Shown here: positions 3,301-27,209 of the stretch, one piece after another
How positions within the stretch are numbered: position 1 is the first letter of the stretch
How the letters are laid out: every line of letters begins with the position of its first letter
Virus record (IMG/VR): IMGVR_UViG_3300036817_000216
Coordinates: 1 to 46,168 of that record
Source of the DNA: a virus
Length of the DNA: 46,168 nt
Strand: one strand, 5' to 3'
Notes under the pieces: model-generated
Told to the model about the DNA's origin: nothing
The model's database searches: none
What the model saw: the letters and a program-made list of their open reading frames with translations, nothing else
Program-made: the position numbers and the translations under genes

Positions 3301-4373
3301 GTAATGCAGGTTTAGGCCCGCTATTTGATTTTGCCAATTCGTCGATAGGGGGTGGGTTCACCGCTACTCCTCCATTGGTCAACCCAACTACGCTTGGCCA
3401 GCTATCTGGCGGCTACTATGCAATGGGCGGGAGTGCCTACGGCACCGGATTGTGGGATAACTCTACTCACTTCGGACCGTCTTCGCAGTTTTCCGTGAAT
3501 GCAAGCACTCAGCTCACTGATATAGCCAGCCAGTGGCGTCAGAGAGGCTGGGGGCAGACGCCGATGTGGGGTGTGCGCCCGGCACCGTGGGCATCATCGT
3601 GCATTCTGCCGTCGCAGGCGACCACCTTGGGCGGCGCCCTGCCTGCCATCACGCACGTGGGGAACCTGCAGGACTTTCTCGGCGTCAACGCAGGCGGGAC
3701 CAACTACGCCGTCAATGACACGATCACGCTCGCAGGCGGGACATTTACGACGGCTGCACAGGTCTTCGTGACCGCGATCAGCGGCGGCCTCGGTACTGGC
3801 CCAATCACTGCAGTACAGGTTTCGAACAAGGGTGCTTACACGGTTAACCCGACTGCGTTTACTCAAGGGTCTACGACTGGTGCTGGAACAGGCGCCACCT
3901 TCAATCTCCCGATTTGGTACACGAATTATACGATCAGCTACCCGCTGCTTTGGGGTGGCCACATCTACAGGGCTTGCGACGTACGAGGCGGCGCGGCTTT
4001 CGCCGGTGCGACGCATCAGATCACGTCCAGCAATACAGGTTGGTCCTACTTCCAAGCCCTGACAACTACCAACGTGCCGAACCTACGTTGGACGATGGAC
4101 GGCGCTTCACCTTTTATCTACATGAACCTGGAGGCTCTCGAACTCATGTTCCCCGGTCTCGTGCTCGGTCTCGTATCGGACGGCACCGGAGGCTGCACCG
4201 CAATCGCCCAACAGAATTTCATGGTTCTGGAGACGCATGCATCTGCGGGTTACGTCAAGGTTGTTCGTACCGACACCGATGGTGGCCCTTATGTGCCTTC
4301 CCTTGCGGCGTCGAATACCACGTGCACGAACAACACGATCGCCCAGCAGGCTCCAAACCTGACAACCTTCTGA
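372..4373 (+). CDS. Tail spike/fibre with beta-helix (pectate-lyase-like) domain
   Basis: A 1333-residue protein, probably the main receptor-binding spike. Residues 1-31 look like a Sec signal peptide or signal anchor (basic start, about 20 hydrophobic residues, AYA then Gln). About residues 55-230 hold three degenerate copies of a module with the motifs GAVPASGG, FLRADG and GGYTNxQLTALI, common as linkers in phage fibres. Near residues 266-280 the string YLNIKTFGATGDGT is the typical entry to a Pectate_lyase_3 right-handed beta-helix. The rest is Gly/Asn/Thr-rich and consistent with a long beta-helix. The Shine-Dalgarno is weak (GTGAG). It sits directly after the tail nozzle gene and before a second spike, the usual place for adhesins. 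The enzymatic specificity cannot be read from the sequence. Confidence 0.8.
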   Translation: MRYKVLFAALCSVLLAAWVALGLMYRDAYAQSNPGFVPNQVLTAQQLNAAFQNKQNYPIPFTALPLFTTTTAGAVPASGGGVLNFLRADGVFAQPPSGGSGAPGGTNLQVEYNNNGVFGGYTNTQLTALINAFTSTLPGAVPASGGNIQTYLRANGSFFNPVGGSNNQVQFNNGGVFGGYTNAQLTALIVACNGTTSGAVPTPNNNANTFLNGQCGFTTPAGGGNVSTSSNLVNGNCVQATGTTTVGPATVPCGSGGTGATAFTDYLNIKTFGATGDGTCHALSSAYATLALAQAVYPFVSDLTQCIDWAATQKAFNTAFSTAPLSNGSFDVYCPVGSFQLSNPVFFDQANNSQGSYAAWASGTTYANAANVTYNGIPWISMGSGNVGNPPTSMFGYPANFSIVNSGGGSIYPSGFPWATVTISNASPARIAPLLGGGTLAVTANQPIVLFTQQVANPNGGATPVLPTGVNVAQVYYVVGSSITSTDFTVSATPGGAAVNTSTTGVGNFFASGQVWQLSVVQFAPTFSSRVALIGADGTPSNSGCQFQGQNDWTSPLIILGPQNGVYVKSITAVGNVGGNPGNNGYKCTVPFSINHNAGFQLGSAGFAQVSSGGGSHLATYENVSAYGFYIGDWHGFSGTGELTDSNTWIKPSFSGNCINLLMSHTQAFINTIYDGQLNNATTNVYASDQEGVKAIGGNYSQFFALGTTFAISGVSTSASCGNNFVICVVATITSPDNNLQTPMCSYSAGSAYAQQVKWLNSWPLASGCGYNTWVFKTAKWGLVGAYVMNYNPFTSQITLGVPPAYAGIYQGTCCGSNFATDLAAQTTVYASEAAISFFGNNQVENVWFENIGVPSTFSCFCSEFFGGAKPAELRNIMIDVDATNSTLICCNRPPLLAGTQYVPWGYAQNVIPIINSSLGDTILDHVAGGGWALSAPTSNYSGAMDRALIATSTANYVEGRHMMGANNQVVGGGSAGNAGLGPLFDFANSSIGGGFTATPPLVNPTTLGQLSGGYYAMGGSAYGTGLWDNSTHFGPSSQFSVNASTQLTDIASQWRQRGWGQTPMWGVRPAPWASSCILPSQATTLGGALPAITHVGNLQDFLGVNAGGTNYAVNDTITLAGGTFTTAAQVFVTAISGGLGTGPITAVQVSNKGAYTVNPTAFTQGSTTGAGTGATFNLPIWYTNYTISYPLLWGGHIYRACDVRGGAAFAGATHQITSSNTGWSYFQALTTTNVPNLRWTMDGASPFIYMNLEALELMFPGLVLGLVSDGTGGCTAIAQQNFMVLETHASAGYVKVVRTDTDGGPYVPSLAASNTTCTNNTIAQQAPNLTTF

Positions 4374-4381
4374 GGACAACA

Positions 4382-6082
4382 ATGAAACGGTTTCTCCTTG
4401 CTCTGCTGTTCTGCTTGTATGCTCCTGTGGCGTGGGCCGGCTGTTCGGTCGGTGCGCTGCCCTTCATCCTGCAGAACAACACGATCGCCGATGCCACGCA
4501 GGTGATGGCTGATTTTAATCAGATCATCGCAGGAGCGGCGTCGAATTGCGCGGGCGCCGGGACCAATACGGACATCACGAATCTAAACGGGCTGACGCTG
4601 CCCAACAACACGATCATGTGCAATGCGTCGGGTGTAGTGGGGCCTCCGCAGTACTGCTCCGGCGGGCAGGTCGCCAACATTCTCGGTTATTGCTTGATCG
4701 ACGGTGTTACGTTTCCAGCCACGATAGCCGGCATTCAGAACGCGATAAATCAGACGAGCTGCCACGACATTTACATCCCAGCAGGCACCTATGCTGGGTC
4801 TACGGCACTTGTGATTGCGAGGTCAAACATACGCTTGCACGGGGCTGGTGGAATTATATCAGCACAAGGAGCCACCAATGCTCAAACAGCTTCGACGATT
4901 CTGAGTTTCACTTGTTTTTCTTCGGGGTCCAGTGCGGTCACGGTTGGAGACACGAGCCCGACGCTGCAGTATGGCGGGATCGAGCTTAGCGACTTTGAAA
5001 TTCTGCTTCCACAATCTTGCAACATGAATGGATTGGAGGTGCGGGCTTCGACACCGGAGTTTCAGCTTGTTAGGCGCGTGCGCATTACTGAGGTGGTGGG
5101 CAACACGGTGGGCGTAGCTGTTCTGCTTGACGCTGGCGTCTACAGCTGGACTTTCGAGGATGTCACGGTCGATCATTTTTTCGCTGGTTATAAATTCAGT
5201 GCGACCAATCATTTTACGCGCGTGACCGGGGGGCACTGTAGCAACAACTCGATCTGTGCTATGTACCAAAGCAATTCGGCCAGCCAAAACATCGTCTTCG
5301 ACAAGGTCGATATTGAGGGCAATCTTTCTTACGGGTTCGACATTTTCTCGGCCGCTGGCTGGATCATCCGCGATTGCTTTATCGACAACGGCTTTGCAGC
5401 GGGCACGCGCGCAGTTCGTATTGGCGCCGGGACCCAGCTCGTCGAAGGCGTGACGATAACTGGGAACGTTTTCAACAACGGCGCCAATGCGCAGTACGCG
5501 ATTGAGCTGGCGTCCAACGGCTTTACCGGGCTGCACATTGAGAACAACCACTTCAACAGCTATAGCACGGGGCATGTTCTAAACAACTCTGGTTTGAACG
5601 GGTCCCACGGTACCTATCTCGCAAACGACGCTTTTTTTCCCGGTGGGTTTGCTAATGAATTAAGTTCGCCTTCTGGTTTCGACATAATCCACTTCGGGTT
5701 CAGTACCAGCCAGGGCAGTCTGTACACTAAGTTGACGCGCCCCGGTATTCGCGGGACTGGCGTGTTGAACACGCAGTTTGGGTCGTTTGCCAATCTTGGC
5801 GGTACGCCGGCCGTGGCTGTTACGAACGGCTCGCGTGACACGGTCGGCGAGGTGACGATCACACCGACCGGCACGCCTGCAGCGAACGGCACGTTCGTGT
5901 TTACGTTCCAGGACGGGACTTGGGGGCAGATACCGTTTTGCATAGTGGGGAACACGGGCGGGATTAACGGTGTCGTACGTCTTACAACACGTTCCGCCAC
6001 AACACTTACTGTGCTAATGGAAGGGACCTGGACTTCAGGGGCAGGTTTTGCGATTACATGGAACTGCTGGGCTAGCCAGTAG
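4382..6082 (+). CDS. Second tail spike, beta-helix protein with signal peptide
   Basis: A 566-residue protein. The frame is open upstream to 3914, but the start is set at ATG 4382 because GAGG lies six bases before it and the first residues form a textbook signal peptide (MKRFLLALLF, then AWA followed by Gly-Cys). Residues 20-110 are a Cys-containing fibre-like neck with NNTIMCN and CSGGQVANILG. From about residue 115 the pattern of short beta strands with IYIPAGTY and repeated Asn/Gly turns is typical of a right-handed parallel beta-helix. The last 85 residues, rich in Thr and Val, look like a separate C-terminal cap or trimerisation domain. It probably pairs with the upstream spike, giving two adhesins or depolymerases. 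The function is inferred from fold and position only. Confidence 0.75.
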   Translation: MKRFLLALLFCLYAPVAWAGCSVGALPFILQNNTIADATQVMADFNQIIAGAASNCAGAGTNTDITNLNGLTLPNNTIMCNASGVVGPPQYCSGGQVANILGYCLIDGVTFPATIAGIQNAINQTSCHDIYIPAGTYAGSTALVIARSNIRLHGAGGIISAQGATNAQTASTILSFTCFSSGSSAVTVGDTSPTLQYGGIELSDFEILLPQSCNMNGLEVRASTPEFQLVRRVRITEVVGNTVGVAVLLDAGVYSWTFEDVTVDHFFAGYKFSATNHFTRVTGGHCSNNSICAMYQSNSASQNIVFDKVDIEGNLSYGFDIFSAAGWIIRDCFIDNGFAAGTRAVRIGAGTQLVEGVTITGNVFNNGANAQYAIELASNGFTGLHIENNHFNSYSTGHVLNNSGLNGSHGTYLANDAFFPGGFANELSSPSGFDIIHFGFSTSQGSLYTKLTRPGIRGTGVLNTQFGSFANLGGTPAVAVTNGSRDTVGEVTITPTGTPAANGTFVFTFQDGTWGQIPFCIVGNTGGINGVVRLTTRSATTLTVLMEGTWTSGAGFAITWNCWASQ

Positions 6083-10378: not shown

Positions 10379-12274
10379 ATGCCCGACTACAGCATCACAG
10401 CGCCAGACGGTACCAAGTACACGTTTAAGAACGTGCCCGCCGGTACTCCTGAAGCAGAAATTCAGGCTGAGGCCGAGCGCTTACATGGTGCAGGTGACGC
10501 GGGCGAGGACATGCCGGCTACTGGAGCGCCTAAAGAGAGCTGGCTGAAATTCTTCAAGCAGGGGATCGGCGAAGGCTTCATGGGCTTCCTGGAAAGCGGA
10601 GCCCAGAGCGAGCCCGGCGCCTCTGGCGCGCGCCCTGAACAGATCGAACACCTGCCGGGTCAGCCCCCCGCCCAAACTCTAGGCGGTCGCATTGCTCAAG
10701 GATTTGGCGCGGGACTGGGCAACCCGGCAGGCTACGCGCTCGGTCCGGCAGGTGTTCTCCCGCTGGCCGGGCGTGTAGGCGCATCGATGTTGGGAGGTGC
10801 CGGAAGCGAGATCGGCGGCATGCTTACGGGCGACAGTGCCGGCGGCCGGATAATCGGAGGTTTGGTCGGCGGCGCGGCGTTGCCTACTGCCATGAAGGCT
10901 GTACCGGGAACGACCCGGCTGCGGGGAGAACCGGGGCCGGCTGTAGGAGGCGGTGCTGTGCCGCCGCCGACTGCCGGCGCGGCTGAACACCAAACGGCAC
11001 TGGCCGCTTTGCGCCGGGCCGGCATTGAGCCGACAGCCGGTGATGTTCTGCGCTCCCCGATAACGCAGCGCATGGAGAGGATGGGTAATCGGCTGGGGGG
11101 CGGAGCTTCTTACGAAATTGCTAAGACGCACGTCGCGGAGCAGTTCACGCGCGCGGTGGGGCGCTCAATCGGTGTTGAGGAACCGTATTTGACTGATACC
11201 GTGTGGCAGCGCTTTGCGGCTAGAAATGGAGCGCAATACAAGCGCGCAGCGGATCAGATAAATATTCGCTTCGAAGCCTACAACCACGACGGCAATCGGG
11301 GAGTAGGACCTGCAGGTGCCAGAAAATCGCTTGGTGACGCGCTTCAGGAAATTCCGCAGGAAATGGCGCAGTACCATGATCCTGAAGAAGACATTCAGCG
11401 GGTATCGGGGCTGATCTATGGCATTCTAGACGGGTTCGTGACCAGAATGCAGCGGGGCAAGCCGGTCGGCCGAATGGACGGCGCCACCTATCAAAATTTG
11501 ACACGCTATGGAGAATCGCGGCTTGCGCGTGCGATGGAGGACCCGCGGATTTCCTATCAGGCAATGAAGATTCGCACGATCCTTGACGATGCCATGGAGG
11601 ACACGGCGCAGCAGGCCATACAGAGAGCGCAGGCGGCTTTCCGGCGTCCGCCCGGCGCGCCTGTGCCGCGAGGACAGGCGGGCGCTCCGGCGCGCGAGCG
11701 GGCCATCCGGCTGGCCGAAGGGCTTGAAGACCTCAAAGAAGCGCGAAGGCAGTTTTATGCCAGCATCGTTTTAAAGGCAGCTGTGTCGCGCGCAGGGCCG
11801 ATGTCGGCACGCTATCTGGTAACGCCGGAGGCGCTTGCGGGCCGGCTGCGCAATACGGCAGACGCCAAACTTCAATACGCTATGCCGCGGGCTGGTCAAA
11901 ATCTGGCGGTTCTCGCCCGCGCCGGCGAGGCCGTGTTGACCTCGCAACAGTCATCCATCCCGGAGCTTGGCGCCATGCACGGAAGTTTCGGCGCAGCTGG
12001 CGGGTTGGCCGGAATGGTCGTTGGCCACCCGTACGCAGGCGCTGCTGCGGGCGCCGCCGTGGGTCCGGGACTTGCAGGCCGTCTTGCCAACTCCCGGGCC
12101 GCGCAATGGTACCTCAAAAATCAGGCGCTGATCGATGTCCTCAACCAGACTGTTACGGTCCGCGAGGCGGCGGCGCGCGGCGCAGCCGTGTCGCAGCCGA
12201 ATGCGCGAAGGCGGCGCCCGCTGCAGGTCACTGTGCATCCCGACGAGTCACGCTACGGGGGACCCGATGAATGA
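10379..12274 (+). CDS. Third internal virion / DNA-transfer-like protein
   Basis: A 631-residue protein beginning two bases after the previous stop. Residues 1-36 (YSITAPDGTKYTF, then a helix ending AERLH) form a small N-terminal module common in phage ejection or tape-like proteins. Residues 95-180 are Gly/Ala-rich and hydrophobic (GQGFGAGLGNPAGYALG, MLGGAGSEIGGML), compatible with membrane insertion after ejection. The centre is charged and helical. Another Gly/Ala-rich membrane-like segment lies at about 540-575 (GLAGMVVGHPYAGAAAGAAVG). Likely function: part of the periplasm-spanning DNA conduit. No lytic transglycosylase motif was seen. The last codons overlap the ATP-grasp gene. Confidence 0.6.
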   Translation: MPDYSITAPDGTKYTFKNVPAGTPEAEIQAEAERLHGAGDAGEDMPATGAPKESWLKFFKQGIGEGFMGFLESGAQSEPGASGARPEQIEHLPGQPPAQTLGGRIAQGFGAGLGNPAGYALGPAGVLPLAGRVGASMLGGAGSEIGGMLTGDSAGGRIIGGLVGGAALPTAMKAVPGTTRLRGEPGPAVGGGAVPPPTAGAAEHQTALAALRRAGIEPTAGDVLRSPITQRMERMGNRLGGGASYEIAKTHVAEQFTRAVGRSIGVEEPYLTDTVWQRFAARNGAQYKRAADQINIRFEAYNHDGNRGVGPAGARKSLGDALQEIPQEMAQYHDPEEDIQRVSGLIYGILDGFVTRMQRGKPVGRMDGATYQNLTRYGESRLARAMEDPRISYQAMKIRTILDDAMEDTAQQAIQRAQAAFRRPPGAPVPRGQAGAPARERAIRLAEGLEDLKEARRQFYASIVLKAAVSRAGPMSARYLVTPEALAGRLRNTADAKLQYAMPRAGQNLAVLARAGEAVLTSQQSSIPELGAMHGSFGAAGGLAGMVVGHPYAGAAAGAAVGPGLAGRLANSRAAQWYLKNQALIDVLNQTVTVREAAARGAAVSQPNARRRRPLQVTVHPDESRYGGPDE

Positions 12275-13617
12275 GGGTGCTGATCGTTGACCCGCCCGGG
12301 CATGGTCTCGACCTTGCCGTTCGTGCTCAGCAAGCAGGGCATGATGTACGTCTTGCCATTCGTGAAGATGAGCGCACCAAACAGATCGGGCGTGGACTTT
12401 GTGAGGTCGTTCGTGATCACAAAGCGTGGTTGCGTTGGTCTAATCTTGTAATTTGTACGGACAACTCCCTCTATCTCCACGATCTCGACCGACACCGCAA
12501 CGAAGGCGGACTCGTCATAGCCCCATCGGTGGAGGCTTCTAAGTGGGAGCTGGATCGGAAGCTCGGCCAAAATATCTTCCGCAAATCGGGAATCAACACT
12601 GCCACGAGCAAGGAGTTCCATTCCTACGAAGACGCGATGGCTTTCATCAAAAAAACTATGGGCCGCTTTGTTAGCAAGCCCTGCGACGATGCAAACGCCG
12701 ACAAGGCTCTTAGTTACTGCTCGTCCGGGCCAGACGATATGCTGTACATGCTTGAGCGCTGGCGGCGCTCCGACAAGCTGAAGGGTTCCTTTATCCTGCA
12801 GGAGTTCATACCGGGTATCGAGATGAGTGCTGCCGGCTGGTTCGGTCCGCATGGGTTTAACGACTGCTTTGAGGAAGCGTTTGAGTTTAAGAAGCTAATG
12901 GCCGGCGAGTGCGGGCCGGCGACAGGCGAGCAGGGCACAGTGATGCGGTACGTGCGCAACTCCAAGCTGGCCAATAAGGTGCTCCTTCCCCTTGCTCCCC
13001 AGCTCAAGAAGCTTGGCTATGTGGGCGATGTAGCAGTAAATTGTATAGTCGATGAGAAAGGTCGCCCGTGGCCCTTGGAGTTCACCATGAGGCTCGGCTG
13101 GCCAGCTTTTCAGCTCCAATGCGCACTTTTGCGACCCGGTGAGGACCCGATCCAATGGCTGCACGATCTGGCGGTAGGCAAGGATGCCCAGCCGTTTTCG
13201 CTCGACCTTGTGGCGATCGGGGTCGTGCTTTCCGTGCCGGACTATCCCTACTCGCGGATGACGCGGAAAGAGGTGACGGGCATTCCGATGTTCGGAATCA
13301 CCCCTGGTCTGTTGAGTCATTTGCATCCCTGCGAGATGATGATGATCGACTGTCACAATCAGGTGGGCGACCAGCTGGTGAAGATGCCGACGCTGGCGAC
13401 GGCGGGCGACTACGTGGCGGTGATGACGGCAACAGCCGCGACAGTGCAGGATGCTCGGACCAAAGTTTACCGCAGGCTGGACAGGGTGAAGAAAAGGATG
13501 CCAGGGTCACCGATGTACAGAACGGACATAGGGGGGAGGCTGTCCAGCCAATTACCGGTCCTGCACAAGATGGGGTATGCACGCGGTTTGACATACTCAC
13601 CCCCGCCGAACAGTTAA
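12271..13617 (+). CDS. PurD-like ATP-grasp protein
   Basis: A 448-residue protein with the layout of phosphoribosylamine-glycine ligase. It has an N-terminal Rossmann-like start (MRVLIVDPPGHGLDLAVRA), an ATP-grasp core with a candidate ATP-binding Lys near residue 137 (FVSKP), and a PurD-like segment at about 250-280 (LGYVGDVAVNCI, PLEFTMRLGWPAF). The end resembles the PurD C-terminal domain (VQDARTKVYRRLDRV, MYRTDIGG). PurD usually has Glu-Phe-Asn at the Mg site; here Thr replaces Asn, so the chemistry may differ from purine synthesis. It starts inside the last codons of the preceding structural gene (ATGA-type overlap). It may be a virion component or a nucleotide/peptide ligase; the substrate cannot be deduced. 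Confidence 0.7.
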   Translation: MRVLIVDPPGHGLDLAVRAQQAGHDVRLAIREDERTKQIGRGLCEVVRDHKAWLRWSNLVICTDNSLYLHDLDRHRNEGGLVIAPSVEASKWELDRKLGQNIFRKSGINTATSKEFHSYEDAMAFIKKTMGRFVSKPCDDANADKALSYCSSGPDDMLYMLERWRRSDKLKGSFILQEFIPGIEMSAAGWFGPHGFNDCFEEAFEFKKLMAGECGPATGEQGTVMRYVRNSKLANKVLLPLAPQLKKLGYVGDVAVNCIVDEKGRPWPLEFTMRLGWPAFQLQCALLRPGEDPIQWLHDLAVGKDAQPFSLDLVAIGVVLSVPDYPYSRMTRKEVTGIPMFGITPGLLSHLHPCEMMMIDCHNQVGDQLVKMPTLATAGDYVAVMTATAATVQDARTKVYRRLDRVKKRMPGSPMYRTDIGGRLSSQLPVLHKMGYARGLTYSPPPNS

Positions 13618-21152: not shown

Positions 21153-21479
21153 CTAATCTGTGTCTGCAGTAGGTCGCCCGTCGTGGGGTTTAGACTCCAA
21201 GTAAGCCCGTAAGGCGTAAAGGCTGTCGGGTTCGTCGTCGATGACGAAAGTGAGTCCTCCGGCTTTCCTGATTTCGTCGAGGATGGCCAGCTGAATTTTT
21301 CGGGGCTTGGCTCCGCGTCGCTTAGCCTCAATGGCAAGGAAATTTCCCTCGTAGCATACAAGGAAATCCACGGTTCGCTTTCCATAGCCAGCTTGAACGG
21401 GCATGAAATAATAAAGGCTAGGTTTGTAGCCATCGAGGATTTTCCTAATCGCTTTTTTCGTCAGCCCCTCGGGTGTCAT
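21153..21479 (-). CDS. VRR-NUC / resolvase-like PD-(D/E)xK nuclease
   Basis: A 108-residue protein. The core reads GKRTVDFLVCYEG, then FLAIEAKRRG: an Asp followed by Glu-x-Lys in the spacing of VRR-NUC and Hjc-type nucleases. A Gln (KIQLAIL) follows that aids metal binding, with the closing helix-strand AGGLTFVIDD. The basic N-terminus (LTKKAIRKIL) may contact DNA. The size fits stand-alone VRR-NUC proteins of phages. It probably cleaves branched or replication intermediates. It is coupled to the upstream gene by ATGA. Confidence 0.75.
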   Translation of the reverse strand: MTPEGLTKKAIRKILDGYKPSLYYFMPVQAGYGKRTVDFLVCYEGNFLAIEAKRRGAKPRKIQLAILDEIRKAGGLTFVIDDEPDSLYALRAYLESKPHDGRPTADTD

Positions 21480-21691: not shown

Positions 21692-21930
21692 CAGTTCGCC
21701 TTCCCCTGCGGAAGCGTCATCGGAACACCCCATTGAGGTTGCGTCGCAGTATCAATACTCAGCACGACGATGTGGTGGATAGCCGGAAATGTGACTACGA
21801 AATCATTTCCCCACAGGGCGCCGTCGTTGCGCGCCGCCAAGAACAGTTCCGCGGGCGTGCGATCGTCCGGGACCTGCATCATCAGGATTCGGTTAGCGTC
21901 GGGATTGAGAGCGATGCGGGCGAGTTTCAT
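21691..21930 (-). CDS. Hypothetical early protein
   Basis: A 79-residue protein of mixed alpha/beta character. One hydrophobic strand region (AIHHIVVLSI) is not long enough to be a convincing membrane segment. It starts in an ATGA overlap with the exonuclease gene and ends overlapping the DUF4177-like gene, so it is part of the tightly packed early operon. No family is recognised. Confidence 0.55.
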   Translation of the reverse strand: MKLARIALNPDANRILMMQVPDDRTPAELFLAARNDGALWGNDFVVTFPAIHHIVVLSIDTATQPQWGVPMTLPQGKAN

Positions 21931-22619
21931 CTAGGTAAATCCCTCTTGAACGAACATTGAGCCTTGCTACACGGACACCACGGACAAAGCGGGTTCTCGT
22001 CCGGCGGCCAGTCATTTGAATTGATCCTGTACTCGATGCTGTGAGCCCAGTTGCAGACCATATTCCAGGTCTTCGGTTCTAGCCCGGTCAGATTGTACAT
22101 CTTGCCGACGCGGTTCTGCCGAAGCCAATAATAGAAGGCGACTGTGCCTTCGGTTTCCGGGTAGTGGATTTTCCACAACAGGGCCTGGATCTTCAGTTCC
22201 AGCGGGTCTTCCCACGGTTTGCCGGTTTTCCAATCGACCAGGACAACACCCGGTACATCCGGGTGACGGCTCGCAACGTCGATGCGTGTACGCAAGCGAC
22301 AAGCGTCATCGAAAAAACTACAAGGACGACCATTACTGTCGCATCCCAAGGCCAGCTCGACATCGACCTTCTTGTCCCCCTTGGTGAGTGGAATTACCGC
22401 GTCTTCGTAAGCCTCGTATTCCTGCGGCAGCGGCTCCCGCAATTTGATGCGCCGCTTGAGCGCGTCGTGTGCATCGATGCCGGATGTCTGCGCGTAGCTT
22501 TTCTTTTCGGCTGCGTCCTTGGCCAAGTACTTGTGATAGAACTGCTTCGGGCAACGAACGTAGTCGTTGAGCGGGTTAAACGCCAAGACAACCGGCAGCT
22601 TAGGCAATGTCTGCGTCAT
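21927..22619 (-). CDS. Cas4/RecB-family PD-(D/E)xK exonuclease with Fe-S-type Cys set
   Basis: A 230-residue nuclease. The frame is open upstream, but ATG 22619 overlaps the polymerase stop (ATGA) and begins the fold. YVRCPKQFYHKYL near residue 20 holds the first Cys. GIDAHDAL gives the motif His. RTRIDVASR with VVLVDWKTGK gives the catalytic Asp and Asp-x-Lys. Three further Cys cluster at the end (CPWCPCSKAQC). One N-terminal plus three C-terminal Cys is the iron-sulphur arrangement of Cas4/AddB-like nucleases. Probable role: 5' or 3' end resection in phage recombination or host DNA degradation. It is not associated with any CRISPR array here. Confidence 0.8.
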   Translation of the reverse strand: MTQTLPKLPVVLAFNPLNDYVRCPKQFYHKYLAKDAAEKKSYAQTSGIDAHDALKRRIKLREPLPQEYEAYEDAVIPLTKGDKKVDVELALGCDSNGRPCSFFDDACRLRTRIDVASRHPDVPGVVLVDWKTGKPWEDPLELKIQALLWKIHYPETEGTVAFYYWLRQNRVGKMYNLTGLEPKTWNMVCNWAHSIEYRINSNDWPPDENPLCPWCPCSKAQCSFKRDLPR

Positions 22620-23446
22620 GCCAATGCATCCAATAGTTCTGCTTCCGCCTTGATCGGGCAGGCTGGCATCCACGCGACAGGTTTTTCTACCTCTAACCGG
22701 ATCGCTTCCAGCTCGTTCATAGCATTCGGCGTGTTCGGTATCAATACGATAATGTCGTCGTGTACCGTCAACGGGATGCGATAACCCATTTGTGACACGC
22801 GCACCATCGCTTGACTGATCACGATACGCGCTAGCCATTGGATGACGTTCTCAATCAGTCGGGCGCCGTAGGTCTTTCGCCATCCTTGCCGGACTTGGTG
22901 CCGCCAGATTTCTTCGCCAGTGTCCAGACGCACGCGCTCCAAGCTAGAATAGTCAAGCCAAAGGCGATCGCCGTTAGAACCGGGGCCGAAAATTCTATGG
23001 TCATGGATGGTCATGCACCTTATGTTGCCTTGTCCGGGCGGCGCCCATTCGAACTCGTAGCCGTTTGCTAGAGACCAGAGAAGCTGGTTAGCTCGCTCCC
23101 AGAGGGCGACGACGTACTCATGTCTTGCTCGATAGAGATCACGCGCTTCAACCCCTTGCTCGTCTGTGAGATATACAGGCGGACCGTAAGCTCCCGAACG
23201 GGCTGTTCGAACGATCGTAAGTCCGCCTGCACCATACCCGCAGCTAAGTTCAAGCTGTTTTCCAGTACCCCTTTCAGCAGGGTCAGATTTTGTGATTGGC
23301 CGTCCATAGAAAGCAGAGGCCAGCTCGCTGTAAAGGTCCACTCCGGTCCTGAATTTTTCGACGACATCCCATTGCCCCGCTAATGTGTTGAGCATGCGGC
23401 ACTCGATCTGTGCCAAGTCCACTTTGCCGATCTTGAATTGCGTCAT
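22616..23446 (-). CDS. Family A DNA polymerase, palm/fingers half (split gene)
   Basis: A 276-residue protein carrying the catalytic palm and fingers of PolA. Motif A is VDLAQIECR, beginning only eight residues after the start. Motif B is R-x3-K-x7-YG in ERGTGKQLELSCGYG. Motif C is VHDD (usually VHDE). The residue equivalent to E. coli Phe762 is Leu. The exonuclease half is a separate gene at 23739-24815, with a winged-helix gene between them. The two halves meet exactly at the loop before motif A, and nothing obvious is missing. ATG 23446 overlaps the upstream stop (ATGA). This part alone should need the other half for fold and activity. Confidence 0.85.
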   Translation of the reverse strand: MTQFKIGKVDLAQIECRMLNTLAGQWDVVEKFRTGVDLYSELASAFYGRPITKSDPAERGTGKQLELSCGYGAGGLTIVRTARSGAYGPPVYLTDEQGVEARDLYRARHEYVVALWERANQLLWSLANGYEFEWAPPGQGNIRCMTIHDHRIFGPGSNGDRLWLDYSSLERVRLDTGEEIWRHQVRQGWRKTYGARLIENVIQWLARIVISQAMVRVSQMGYRIPLTVHDDIIVLIPNTPNAMNELEAIRLEVEKPVAWMPACPIKAEAELLDALA

Positions 23447-23742
23447 CTGCCTAGCACCACGAGATAAACACGAGCCTTGCGGCCCGAACGTGTTAACCTT
23501 CGCCGACCGGAATCGAAAATCCAACCGTCAAGAACCAGTTCTCGCAACCGCGCACTAACGGTTTGATGTCTCCCGTGTAGAATTTCCAATTCGTCGCAAG
23601 TTTGGCCCCAATTGCCAGATTTCTTGACGCTTACATAAATCCGCGCGCGAATGCGCGGTGCTGAATCCTCCATACTAGAGGCTGCGTTTTCACTCGTGTC
23701 ACTACCCCTTACAAATCCCGGAATATCTGGATAAGTGTTCAT
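23443..23742 (-). CDS. Winged-helix protein lodged inside the polymerase gene pair
   Basis: A 99-residue protein. Its ATG (23742) overlaps the stop of the polymerase N-half, and its TGA overlaps the start of the C-half, both as ATGA. After a polar N-terminal 28 residues, TCDELEILHGRHQTVSARLRELVLDGWI is a clear winged helix, with a wing strand RRLTRSGRKARVYLV. Stand-alone proteins of this type are widespread in phages. A regulatory role or an accessory DNA-binding subunit for the polymerase is possible. No nuclease motif was seen, so it does not look like a homing endonuclease. Confidence 0.75.
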   Translation of the reverse strand: MNTYPDIPGFVRGSDTSENAASSMEDSAPRIRARIYVSVKKSGNWGQTCDELEILHGRHQTVSARLRELVLDGWIFDSGRRRLTRSGRKARVYLVVLGR

Positions 23743-24815
23743 GGCGCCTTGATCGCGCGTCGAAGCGCGCCCTTCTGCGGCCGATACGGGTCCGGTCTCG
23801 GCAGGTTCTGAAAGTTCGTCTTGTCGCCACCTCCCCAGCGCCGCGTGTGAGCCGCAGCGTAGGCCAGATAGACGCAGAGCGGGCCGCGGGTGGCCATCCA
23901 CCCATAGCGCTCGATGCGCGTTCTGTAGATGGAACTCTGAGCTTTGAGACGGGCTTCGGCAAGCAGCGCGATGTCCTCGTCCTGCTCGTAAAGTAGGTCT
24001 TGCATGAAATAGTCCGACTTGGCAAAAGCGTATTTCTCGTTCCCTTTGGGAGTGGTCTTCTGCTCGGGCTCGACACCCAGCTGTTCGAGACACCACGCAA
24101 AACAAGCGTCCTTACGAAGCTCGGCCGGGCCGATGACAACTGGAACGCGGTAAATTTCATTGAGACGCGTGAACAGCTCATGGGTTGCTTTATTCTCGTC
24201 CAACCACGCGGCGCCAAGCGCATCGACATCTCCGATCAGAATTGGGTCGACGAACATTTTCACCGTAAGATCAATCACTTGCAGTTCGGAGACCGGGAAA
24301 GGATAGGGAATCTTCTCGTGCTTGCCGGACATCATCAGATCGGCGATCTGTTTCGTCAAAACACAGTCATGGCAGGCGCCCGAAGCCACAGCTTGTTGCG
24401 TTGCGGGATCCAGCTCGTCCCAGTGCCGGCCTTTGAAAGCGTCGTAGGGAACGGTTTTGGGCGCGAGGCCCAGCCGCTCAGAAAGGTCACCAAGTCCTTT
24501 CTTAACGCTGGAATCAAACAGAACTCGCGCCATCGAGAGAGTGTCCAGCCAGAACTTTGGACGGAAATCGAAATGGTGGCTAAGAATAAGTCCGTCGAAA
24601 TGTGCGTGGTGCGCCAGCATGGCGATGTTGTCGCCCATTGCGGTCAGCCAGTAGCGCAAGTCTTTGGGGCTAAACCACTCGACGCGGCCATTTTCGCAGA
24701 TCGCGGCGCCGAGCGCGTCGAAACGCGGGTCGCGAACATATTCCTCCGTTGTCATCTTGGACAACGTGTATTCACTGTCGAAATAAGTCTCAAAGTCAAT
24801 CGTGACTACATGCAC
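23739..24815 (-). CDS. Family A DNA polymerase, 3'-5' exonuclease and thumb half (split gene)
   Basis: A 358-residue protein. GTG 24815 is preferred because GAGAGG lies seven bases upstream; an in-frame ATG at 24842 would overlap the upstream gene more. Exo I is IDFET, Exo II AHHAHFDG (the usual Asn is His), Exo III the CHDCVLTKQI helix. The thumb region ends with THTRR-like and NFQNLPRP motifs that normally precede motif A, then stops after RRAIKAP. In intact PolA the next residues would lead straight into motif A, which begins the gene at 23446. Together the halves total 634 residues, normal for phage PolA. Confidence 0.85.
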   Translation of the reverse strand: MHVVTIDFETYFDSEYTLSKMTTEEYVRDPRFDALGAAICENGRVEWFSPKDLRYWLTAMGDNIAMLAHHAHFDGLILSHHFDFRPKFWLDTLSMARVLFDSSVKKGLGDLSERLGLAPKTVPYDAFKGRHWDELDPATQQAVASGACHDCVLTKQIADLMMSGKHEKIPYPFPVSELQVIDLTVKMFVDPILIGDVDALGAAWLDENKATHELFTRLNEIYRVPVVIGPAELRKDACFAWCLEQLGVEPEQKTTPKGNEKYAFAKSDYFMQDLLYEQDEDIALLAEARLKAQSSIYRTRIERYGWMATRGPLCVYLAYAAAHTRRWGGGDKTNFQNLPRPDPYRPQKGALRRAIKAP

Positions 24816-26087: not shown

Positions 26088-27209
26088 TCACCTCGACGTT
26101 CGAAGCGGTTGCTTAAGAATGTCCGTCACGTCGTCCATAGAACGATACTGGGCCGTCGCGTTCGACACCTTCCTCAACAAGTCGCCGTCGGTCATGTCGT
26201 CCAGCAACTGCACCGCATGCGCCTTCATGAGGGCACCGGAACCGCTGCTGTCCAGAACCGCCGAGCCGAAGCGCTGGGTGACCAGCGAGTTCGGCGTGCC
26301 GTCTGAGCCGCGCACCGACCGGTCGTGGTCGGCGTAACGGGTTACGGCGTTGAGCATCGCCCATCCCGTTCGCGGATCCAGTCCCTCCCGGCGAGTGCCG
26401 ACCTGATATGCCTGCACCATCTGGTCGAACTGGTTCCGCTTGCGTGTCGAGATTTCCTCCGGCTTGTCCTTGGGATCGATGTCCAAGGTCAGCTTGAAGA
26501 AACGCGACACGTCCACGTCGGTAAAGTGCACCGCCGCGAGCGCGTCGCCCATGGCTTTGAAACGGTCAAAGCTTTGGACGATCGTCGCCAACTCCTTTCC
26601 TACCTCGACTGGGTAGAACTTGGCATTGTGCCGGGTTCGCACCGTCGTAGGAATTTTTTCAGCTAAGGCCGCGTCGAGCGTGTTATTACAGACAACCCGC
26701 GTGACACACCCACGGTTTATCGTGGCGCCGCTACCGTCGAAGGTAGTGGACATCAACAACCGCGCCTTGTGGTCTTCTCCGGCCACTTTCTGATCGCCGT
26801 TAAAGACGGCCGTGGCCCATATCATCTCGCCGCCGTGGAGACTCCCCGCGACATCGAGCTGGAACCGCGGATCGACAGCCACATACTGTTCGAACCAGTC
26901 TAGGACTGCCCTAGGCTGGACTATCTGGTAGCGGTCGGTCACGGCGCCCGGCGAGAGCACGTGGCCGTTGTCGGCACGGCAGATGAAATGCCGCTCCGGC
27001 ACCCGTATCATATCAAGATTAGGCAGTAGGGTCTGAACGAACGCTGGACATTTGTGGGCCTCCCAGTCGAGGCCCGAATTTTTTGCCCAGTCGTCCACGG
27101 TCCAGCCGTCTTGATGCTGGTTGCCAAGACGGTGCCAGATGTCATCCCTAGAACCGCGGAATGCCATAGAGGAACGGCCGTCTGCCATCGTACCAATATT
27201 GTGCGACAT
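26088..27209 (-). CDS. DUF932 phage/plasmid-like protein
   Basis: A 373-residue protein of the DUF932 (phage/plasmid-like TIGR03299) family. About residues 60-330 contain the expected blocks DRYQIVQPRAVLDWFEQYV, MSTTFDGSGATINRGCVTRVVCNNTLDAAL and GWAMLNAVTRYADHDRSVRG. The family is found widely in phages and plasmids near recombination or anti-restriction genes, and its biochemical role is not settled. AAAGGA precedes the start. It is the second gene of the leftward early operon, separated from the first by a cluster of three hairpins. Confidence 0.8.
   Translation of the reverse strand: MSHNIGTMADGRSSMAFRGSRDDIWHRLGNQHQDGWTVDDWAKNSGLDWEAHKCPAFVQTLLPNLDMIRVPERHFICRADNGHVLSPGAVTDRYQIVQPRAVLDWFEQYVAVDPRFQLDVAGSLHGGEMIWATAVFNGDQKVAGEDHKARLLMSTTFDGSGATINRGCVTRVVCNNTLDAALAEKIPTTVRTRHNAKFYPVEVGKELATIVQSFDRFKAMGDALAAVHFTDVDVSRFFKLTLDIDPKDKPEEISTRKRNQFDQMVQAYQVGTRREGLDPRTGWAMLNAVTRYADHDRSVRGSDGTPNSLVTQRFGSAVLDSSGSGALMKAHAVQLLDDMTDGDLLRKVSNATAQYRSMDDVTDILKQPLRTSR

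Follow-up and report, generated by a model that had tools for sequence, protein, structure and literature searches.

A two-gene family A DNA polymerase with a winged-helix-like gene in its junction, and independent splits of phage polymerases at the same loop

The split DNA polymerase of the Methylophilales phages MEP401 and MEP402 was published in 2023 as ORF13-ORF14-ORF15, in the order N half, small ORF, C half, and the authors left open the possibility of an intron (PMC10580990). In these cultured phages ORF14 encodes 77 amino acids, and the break lies directly before motif A. The cultured Alcaligenes phage vB_Af_QDWS535 (OK172329) also has a split polA, with two adjacent genes annotated as family A polymerase and cut before motif A; they overlap by 1 nt and there is no insert. 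Pseudomonas phage MIJ3 has a split PolB with an intein and an HNH gene (PMC6892783).

We analyzed the polymerase locus of a phage IMG/VR record (IMGVR_UViG_3300036817_000216, 46,168 bases, in its entirety termed the window). Like MEP401 and MEP402, the window has a family A polymerase broken in the loop before motif A, with a small ORF between the halves and the same gene order. It differs from them in that their polymerases belong to a distant polA clade and were split independently, and the junction ORFs are not homologous, the window having a winged-helix gene and ORF14 no Pfam or PHROG match. The two adjacent genes and the place of the cut are shared with vB_Af_QDWS535, whereas the insert-free overlap is not. 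With MIJ3 the window has in common that the phage polymerase is encoded by two genes flanking a small one, but the MIJ3 enzyme is of family B and its split is that of a split intein. A reading made from the sequence alone (the sequence-only reading) had taken an embedded winged-helix gene at this loop to be undescribed. This was wrong in kind, since MEP401 and MEP402 carry N half, small ORF and C half at the same loop (PMC10580990), and a winged-helix gene of Pfam family HTH_39 was found there in three viral contigs (L142, L144, and L146). What is new here is an independently derived member of the published arrangement.

Table 1. Coordinates of the split polymerase locus in the window
Feature	Position	Strand	Description
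polA-N	23739-24815	minus	Family A DNA polymerase 3'-5' exonuclease, thumb and first palm segment; 358 aa, GTG start at 24815
Winged-helix-like gene in polA junction	23443-23742	minus	99 aa
polA-C	22616-23446	minus	Catalytic palm and fingers; 276 aa
ATGA stop/start overlap, polA-N to winged-helix gene	23739-23742	minus	Upstream ATCAAGGCGCC, then ATGA
ATGA stop/start overlap, winged-helix gene to polA-C	23443-23446	minus	Upstream GGTGCTAGGCAG, then ATGA
PD-(D/E)XK exonuclease gene	21927-22619	minus	Downstream of polA-C, outside the polymerase, context only; Pfam PDDEXK_1 3.6e-11

The three genes lie in the order polA-N, 99-residue gene, polA-C on the minus strand, and the ORF read-out agreed with the sequence-only reading on their extent and on the 4-nt ATGA overlap at each junction (Table 1). 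The same overlap links polA-C to the downstream exonuclease gene (22616-22619) and recurs at 21927-21930 and 21476-21479. Overlaps of this type are therefore ordinary in this operon and do not mark out a special trio. The sequence-only reading had taken the two overlaps to fix the order and ratio of the three proteins, a putative effect of a junction type that neighboring genes share. In addition to the exonuclease, the window encodes a terminase, a major head protein, a DUF927 primase/helicase-like protein and an SNF2 helicase. A DUF932 protein (1e-36) is encoded close to the replication genes at 26088-27209, and an ATP-grasp protein resembling PurD (phosphoribosylglycinamide synthetase; under the Pfam cut-off) in the late-gene region at 12271-13617.

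Both halves matched the PHROG DNA polymerase family phrog_17, polA-N over profile positions 670-1002 (1e-18) and polA-C over positions 1007-1225 (4e-27). As the first match stops where the second begins, the halves abut and nothing is missing, and in the homologue alignments all catalytic motifs were retained with no residue lost at the break. This is in agreement with the earlier view that the fold is complete. Pfam DNA_pol_A (PF00476) matched polA-C (4e-10), in which motif A (DLAQIECR), motif B (RGTGKQLELSCGYG) and motif C (HDD) all fall in conserved alignment columns; the three motifs carry the catalytic D, K, Y, and D, which places the enzyme in family A. The exonuclease motifs of polA-N are DFETY, HHAHFD, and ACHD, its residues D7, E9, H69, F73, and D74 were invariant in the homologue alignment as in a phage-type 3'-5' exonuclease, and its identity to intact and split homologues was 30-60%.

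The locus had been described as an exonuclease/thumb half followed by a palm half. The N half does end with RRAIKAP, but the palm is not all in polA-C; it is divided between the two chains, since the N half carries the first palm segment (NFQNLP...RRAIKAP). polA-C starts with MTQFKIGKVDLAQIECR / MTQFKIGKVD. In solved polymerases the break corresponds to a position between the equivalents of FKAP and EGNTFVIADFSQIE of Aquifex Pol I, in the turn that precedes the motif A strand. The structure model of polA-C (pLDDT 92.8) opens with this strand (E4-10), and Foldseek matched the model to the polymerase domains of the Aquifex, Taq, Bst, and Klenow enzymes (E 1e-10 to 1e-8 for Aquifex, Taq, and Klenow).

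The closest relative of the window polymerase, L001 (IMGVR_UViG_3300045141_000295; 62-64% identity in the C half and 57-60% in the N half), is split at the identical site with no intervening gene, the end of its N half (APC and stop codon) overlapping ATG TTG ATC. The two splits are orthologous: the start codon that follows the N half has the same position in both (CC/ATG), and both have the downstream order PD-(D/E)XK-like, VRR-NUC-like, SNF2-like. L001 differs from the window in the absence of the winged-helix gene and in a polA-C start that is three residues shorter. Eight codons separate the polA-C ATG from the motif A aspartate in the window, which equals the spacing from AP to that aspartate in typical intact homologues. 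We also considered, and rejected, that a -1 frameshift might join the two halves in L001; no classical slippery heptamer was visible at the junction. Immediately upstream of polA-N, L001 has a long low-complexity repeat tract (4170-4952) that is open in several frames.

Between the window and L001, dN/dS was 0.17 for polA-N, 0.07 for polA-C and 0.19 for the intact SNF2 neighbor, with dS saturated and the values therefore rough. Rough as they are, the values place both polymerase halves under purifying selection. Together with the retained motifs and the same split in L001, this argues for a stable two-subunit polymerase over decay, as the sequence-only reading had proposed. Intact polA genes occur in the same clade in L002 (47% identity), L007-L010, L012, and L016. 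Such relatives would have counted against that proposal had they carried the winged-helix gene elsewhere; it was not found in them.

Surveys started from the window clade and from the L030 clade showed splits at the loop to be rare, with the window, L001 and L030/L031 as the only cases; L030 and L031 are split without an insert and are nested among intact relatives. A different picture was obtained for a MEP401-like set, made up of 80 viral contigs retrieved with the MEP401 C half and the two isolates: all 78 loci that could be evaluated were split at the same loop and none was intact. The spacing at their junctions varied from short overlaps (-17 or -1 nt) to 26-52 nt gaps and on to inserts several hundred nucleotides in length, and the many insert-free or overlapping junctions disfavor the intron reading of MEP401. 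The inserts held ORF14-like proteins, a short membrane-like peptide, an HNH-like endonuclease ORF (L218, 2358-3001) or the HTH_39 winged-helix gene (E 4e-10; L142, L144, and L146). The last three resemble the window in having a winged-helix gene inside the same split, but the gene is of another family (HTH_39/phrog_4973 vs. phrog_1123) and has ORF14 alongside. Elsewhere, the ctOsX528 junction holds an SH3-like 68-residue ORF annotated as R67 dihydrofolate reductase, and seven genes over 3.6 kb separate the polA halves of ct2os315. Among the seven genes between the halves in L306 (MW202796, 2524-7993), one is for a cytosine methyltransferase and another for a stomatin-like protein. Polymerases of the HMO-2011 type were examined as a further case and rejected, as their DnaJ-like insert sits upstream of the loop and the loop itself is intact.

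Inserts were also observed within polA genes. Intein-like in-frame inserts, starting with Cys and ending with HN or SNC/ANC, were located at motif A in L121 (2075-4795), at motif B in L020 (3728-6649), at motif C in L021 (5884-8670) and before the QN motif in L136 (1751-4297). The polA of a Methanocorpusculum contig (L137, 6161-6908) is interrupted at its QN motif. The interruption, roughly 750 nt long, contains an HNH-like endonuclease ORF and is probably an intron or a homing gene.

In a tree of 35 polymerases with intact versus split as the character, three changes between these states were required, forced by well-supported branches, and a single clade of all split polymerases was rejected (AU p 2e-6). 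On this tree, the split at this loop arose at least three times independently in phages. The split of the window and L001 was most likely present in their common ancestor and separate in origin from those of two or more other phage polA lineages. The window and the MEP401 kind are both broken in the loop that directly precedes the motif A strand, whereas common descent of the split is rejected; it works like the MEP401 kind and evolved separately. Within its own clade, after the split in the common ancestor, L001 may have lost a few codons in frame and the window may have acquired the winged-helix gene. Alternatively, L001 could have lost the winged-helix gene; the two split members of the clade would fit either order of split and insertion.

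The 99-residue protein matched the PHROG family phrog_1123 weakly (4e-5). Its model, based on an alignment of six sequences (pLDDT 68), has three helices (27-42, 49-56, and 59-72) followed by a wing of two strands (75-83 and 89-95), the arrangement of a winged helix. The nearest folds found by Foldseek were winged helices (DnaD-N, TFE, and MarR/MepR) with E of at least 3e-3, none falling under 1e-3, and a PDB sequence search gave no match. Searched alone, the protein (P0002) had no confirmed relative among viral contigs and no match in phages at E 0.01. A looser search gave weak matches (E 0.06-5), and their alignment retrieved eight distant loci, none with a polymerase match; these relatives, with no assigned role, occur in Pelagibacter and Erythrobacter phages, apart from polymerase genes. 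One protein that aligns with the family, HTVC111P gp13 (L048, 3953-4267), is annotated as a putative HNH nuclease. The gene was not found in the records of the closest split and intact relatives in a search with P0002 run without a positive control; a search with phrog_1123, which did recover the window's own copy, did not find it there either. A search of plasmid DNA gave no match. GC3 of the winged-helix gene was 0.45 compared to 0.58-0.71 in eight other genes, the lowest of the nine measured, which suggests recent acquisition. Since the gene was not found in relatives and has a low GC3, it is probably a passenger rather than a third subunit, and its product is probably a small DNA-binding regulator with a job of its own.

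We consider it quite probable that the locus encodes a selected two-polypeptide replicative family A polymerase that was split independently and whose junction gene is a passenger. The sequence-only reading had allowed for a third DNA-binding partner, and the winged-helix protein could act as a functional subunit, for example as a template-binding or processivity factor at the split loop. Its gene does lie between the halves in the same operon, its basic C-terminal wing could bind DNA, and the HTH_39 gene at the same junction in three MEP401-like contigs means that winged helices entered at least twice. This idea did not hold up well against the comparison with other splits: L001 does without the gene, most split polymerases have unrelated genes or nothing at the junction, the two winged-helix genes belong to different families, the GC3 points to recent acquisition, and the weak family relatives live apart from any polymerase match. 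A third subunit is therefore improbable in our judgment, and we are equally doubtful of an accessory winged helix that guides template or origin binding at the open palm loop. If that were true, convergence would have brought winged helices to this one junction in no fewer than two polA lineages.

A further reading takes the insert for a mobile element, be it a group I intron, an intein or a homing gene, whose splicing would yield a single polymerase. This would fit with phage polA being a frequent target, with the intein-like inserts of L121, L020, and L021 and with the HNH-like ORFs of L137 and the L218 junction. The insert of the window is, however, about 296 nt long, entirely coding and without a nuclease. 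It had no Rfam match at E ≤ 1 and hence no recognizable group I intron core, its RNA structure was no stronger than that of shuffled sequences (z -0.68), and no intein residues flank the break, where polA-N ends in AP. L001 and vB_Af_QDWS535, moreover, are split with nothing to splice. We regard splicing as very unlikely, and give just as little credence to a decaying polymerase or a sequencing or assembly error. The insert is known from the window only, a single metagenomic contig, and fairly close relatives such as L002 are intact, but the selection on both halves and the retention of all motifs speak against decay, the same break is present in the separate record of L001, and the insert is an ORF of 99 codons with distant relatives in other phages. 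Altogether, intron, intein, and decay readings are not supported.

Under the two-polypeptide reading, one enzyme would be made up of polA-N, which supplies the exonuclease, thumb and first palm strands, and polA-C, which supplies the motif A strand, fingers and rest of the palm. A single operon mRNA is the most likely template for translation of the two halves, which would associate non-covalently into a normal polymerase. Once present, the split boundary behaves as any gene boundary does, with small genes arriving and leaving. Mobile elements could have made the first break in the loop.

Of interest are the repeated fission at a single loop and the turnover of cargo there. A replicative polymerase gene has been cut at one loop at least three times in phages, and its conservation implies that the enzyme would still work in two pieces. 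The intron question raised for MEP401-type phages can be recast as one of stable gene fission, in which genes accumulate at the junction. The loop before motif A is a natural example of a polymerase tolerating a two-part make-up, and a systematic search for such splits is possible.
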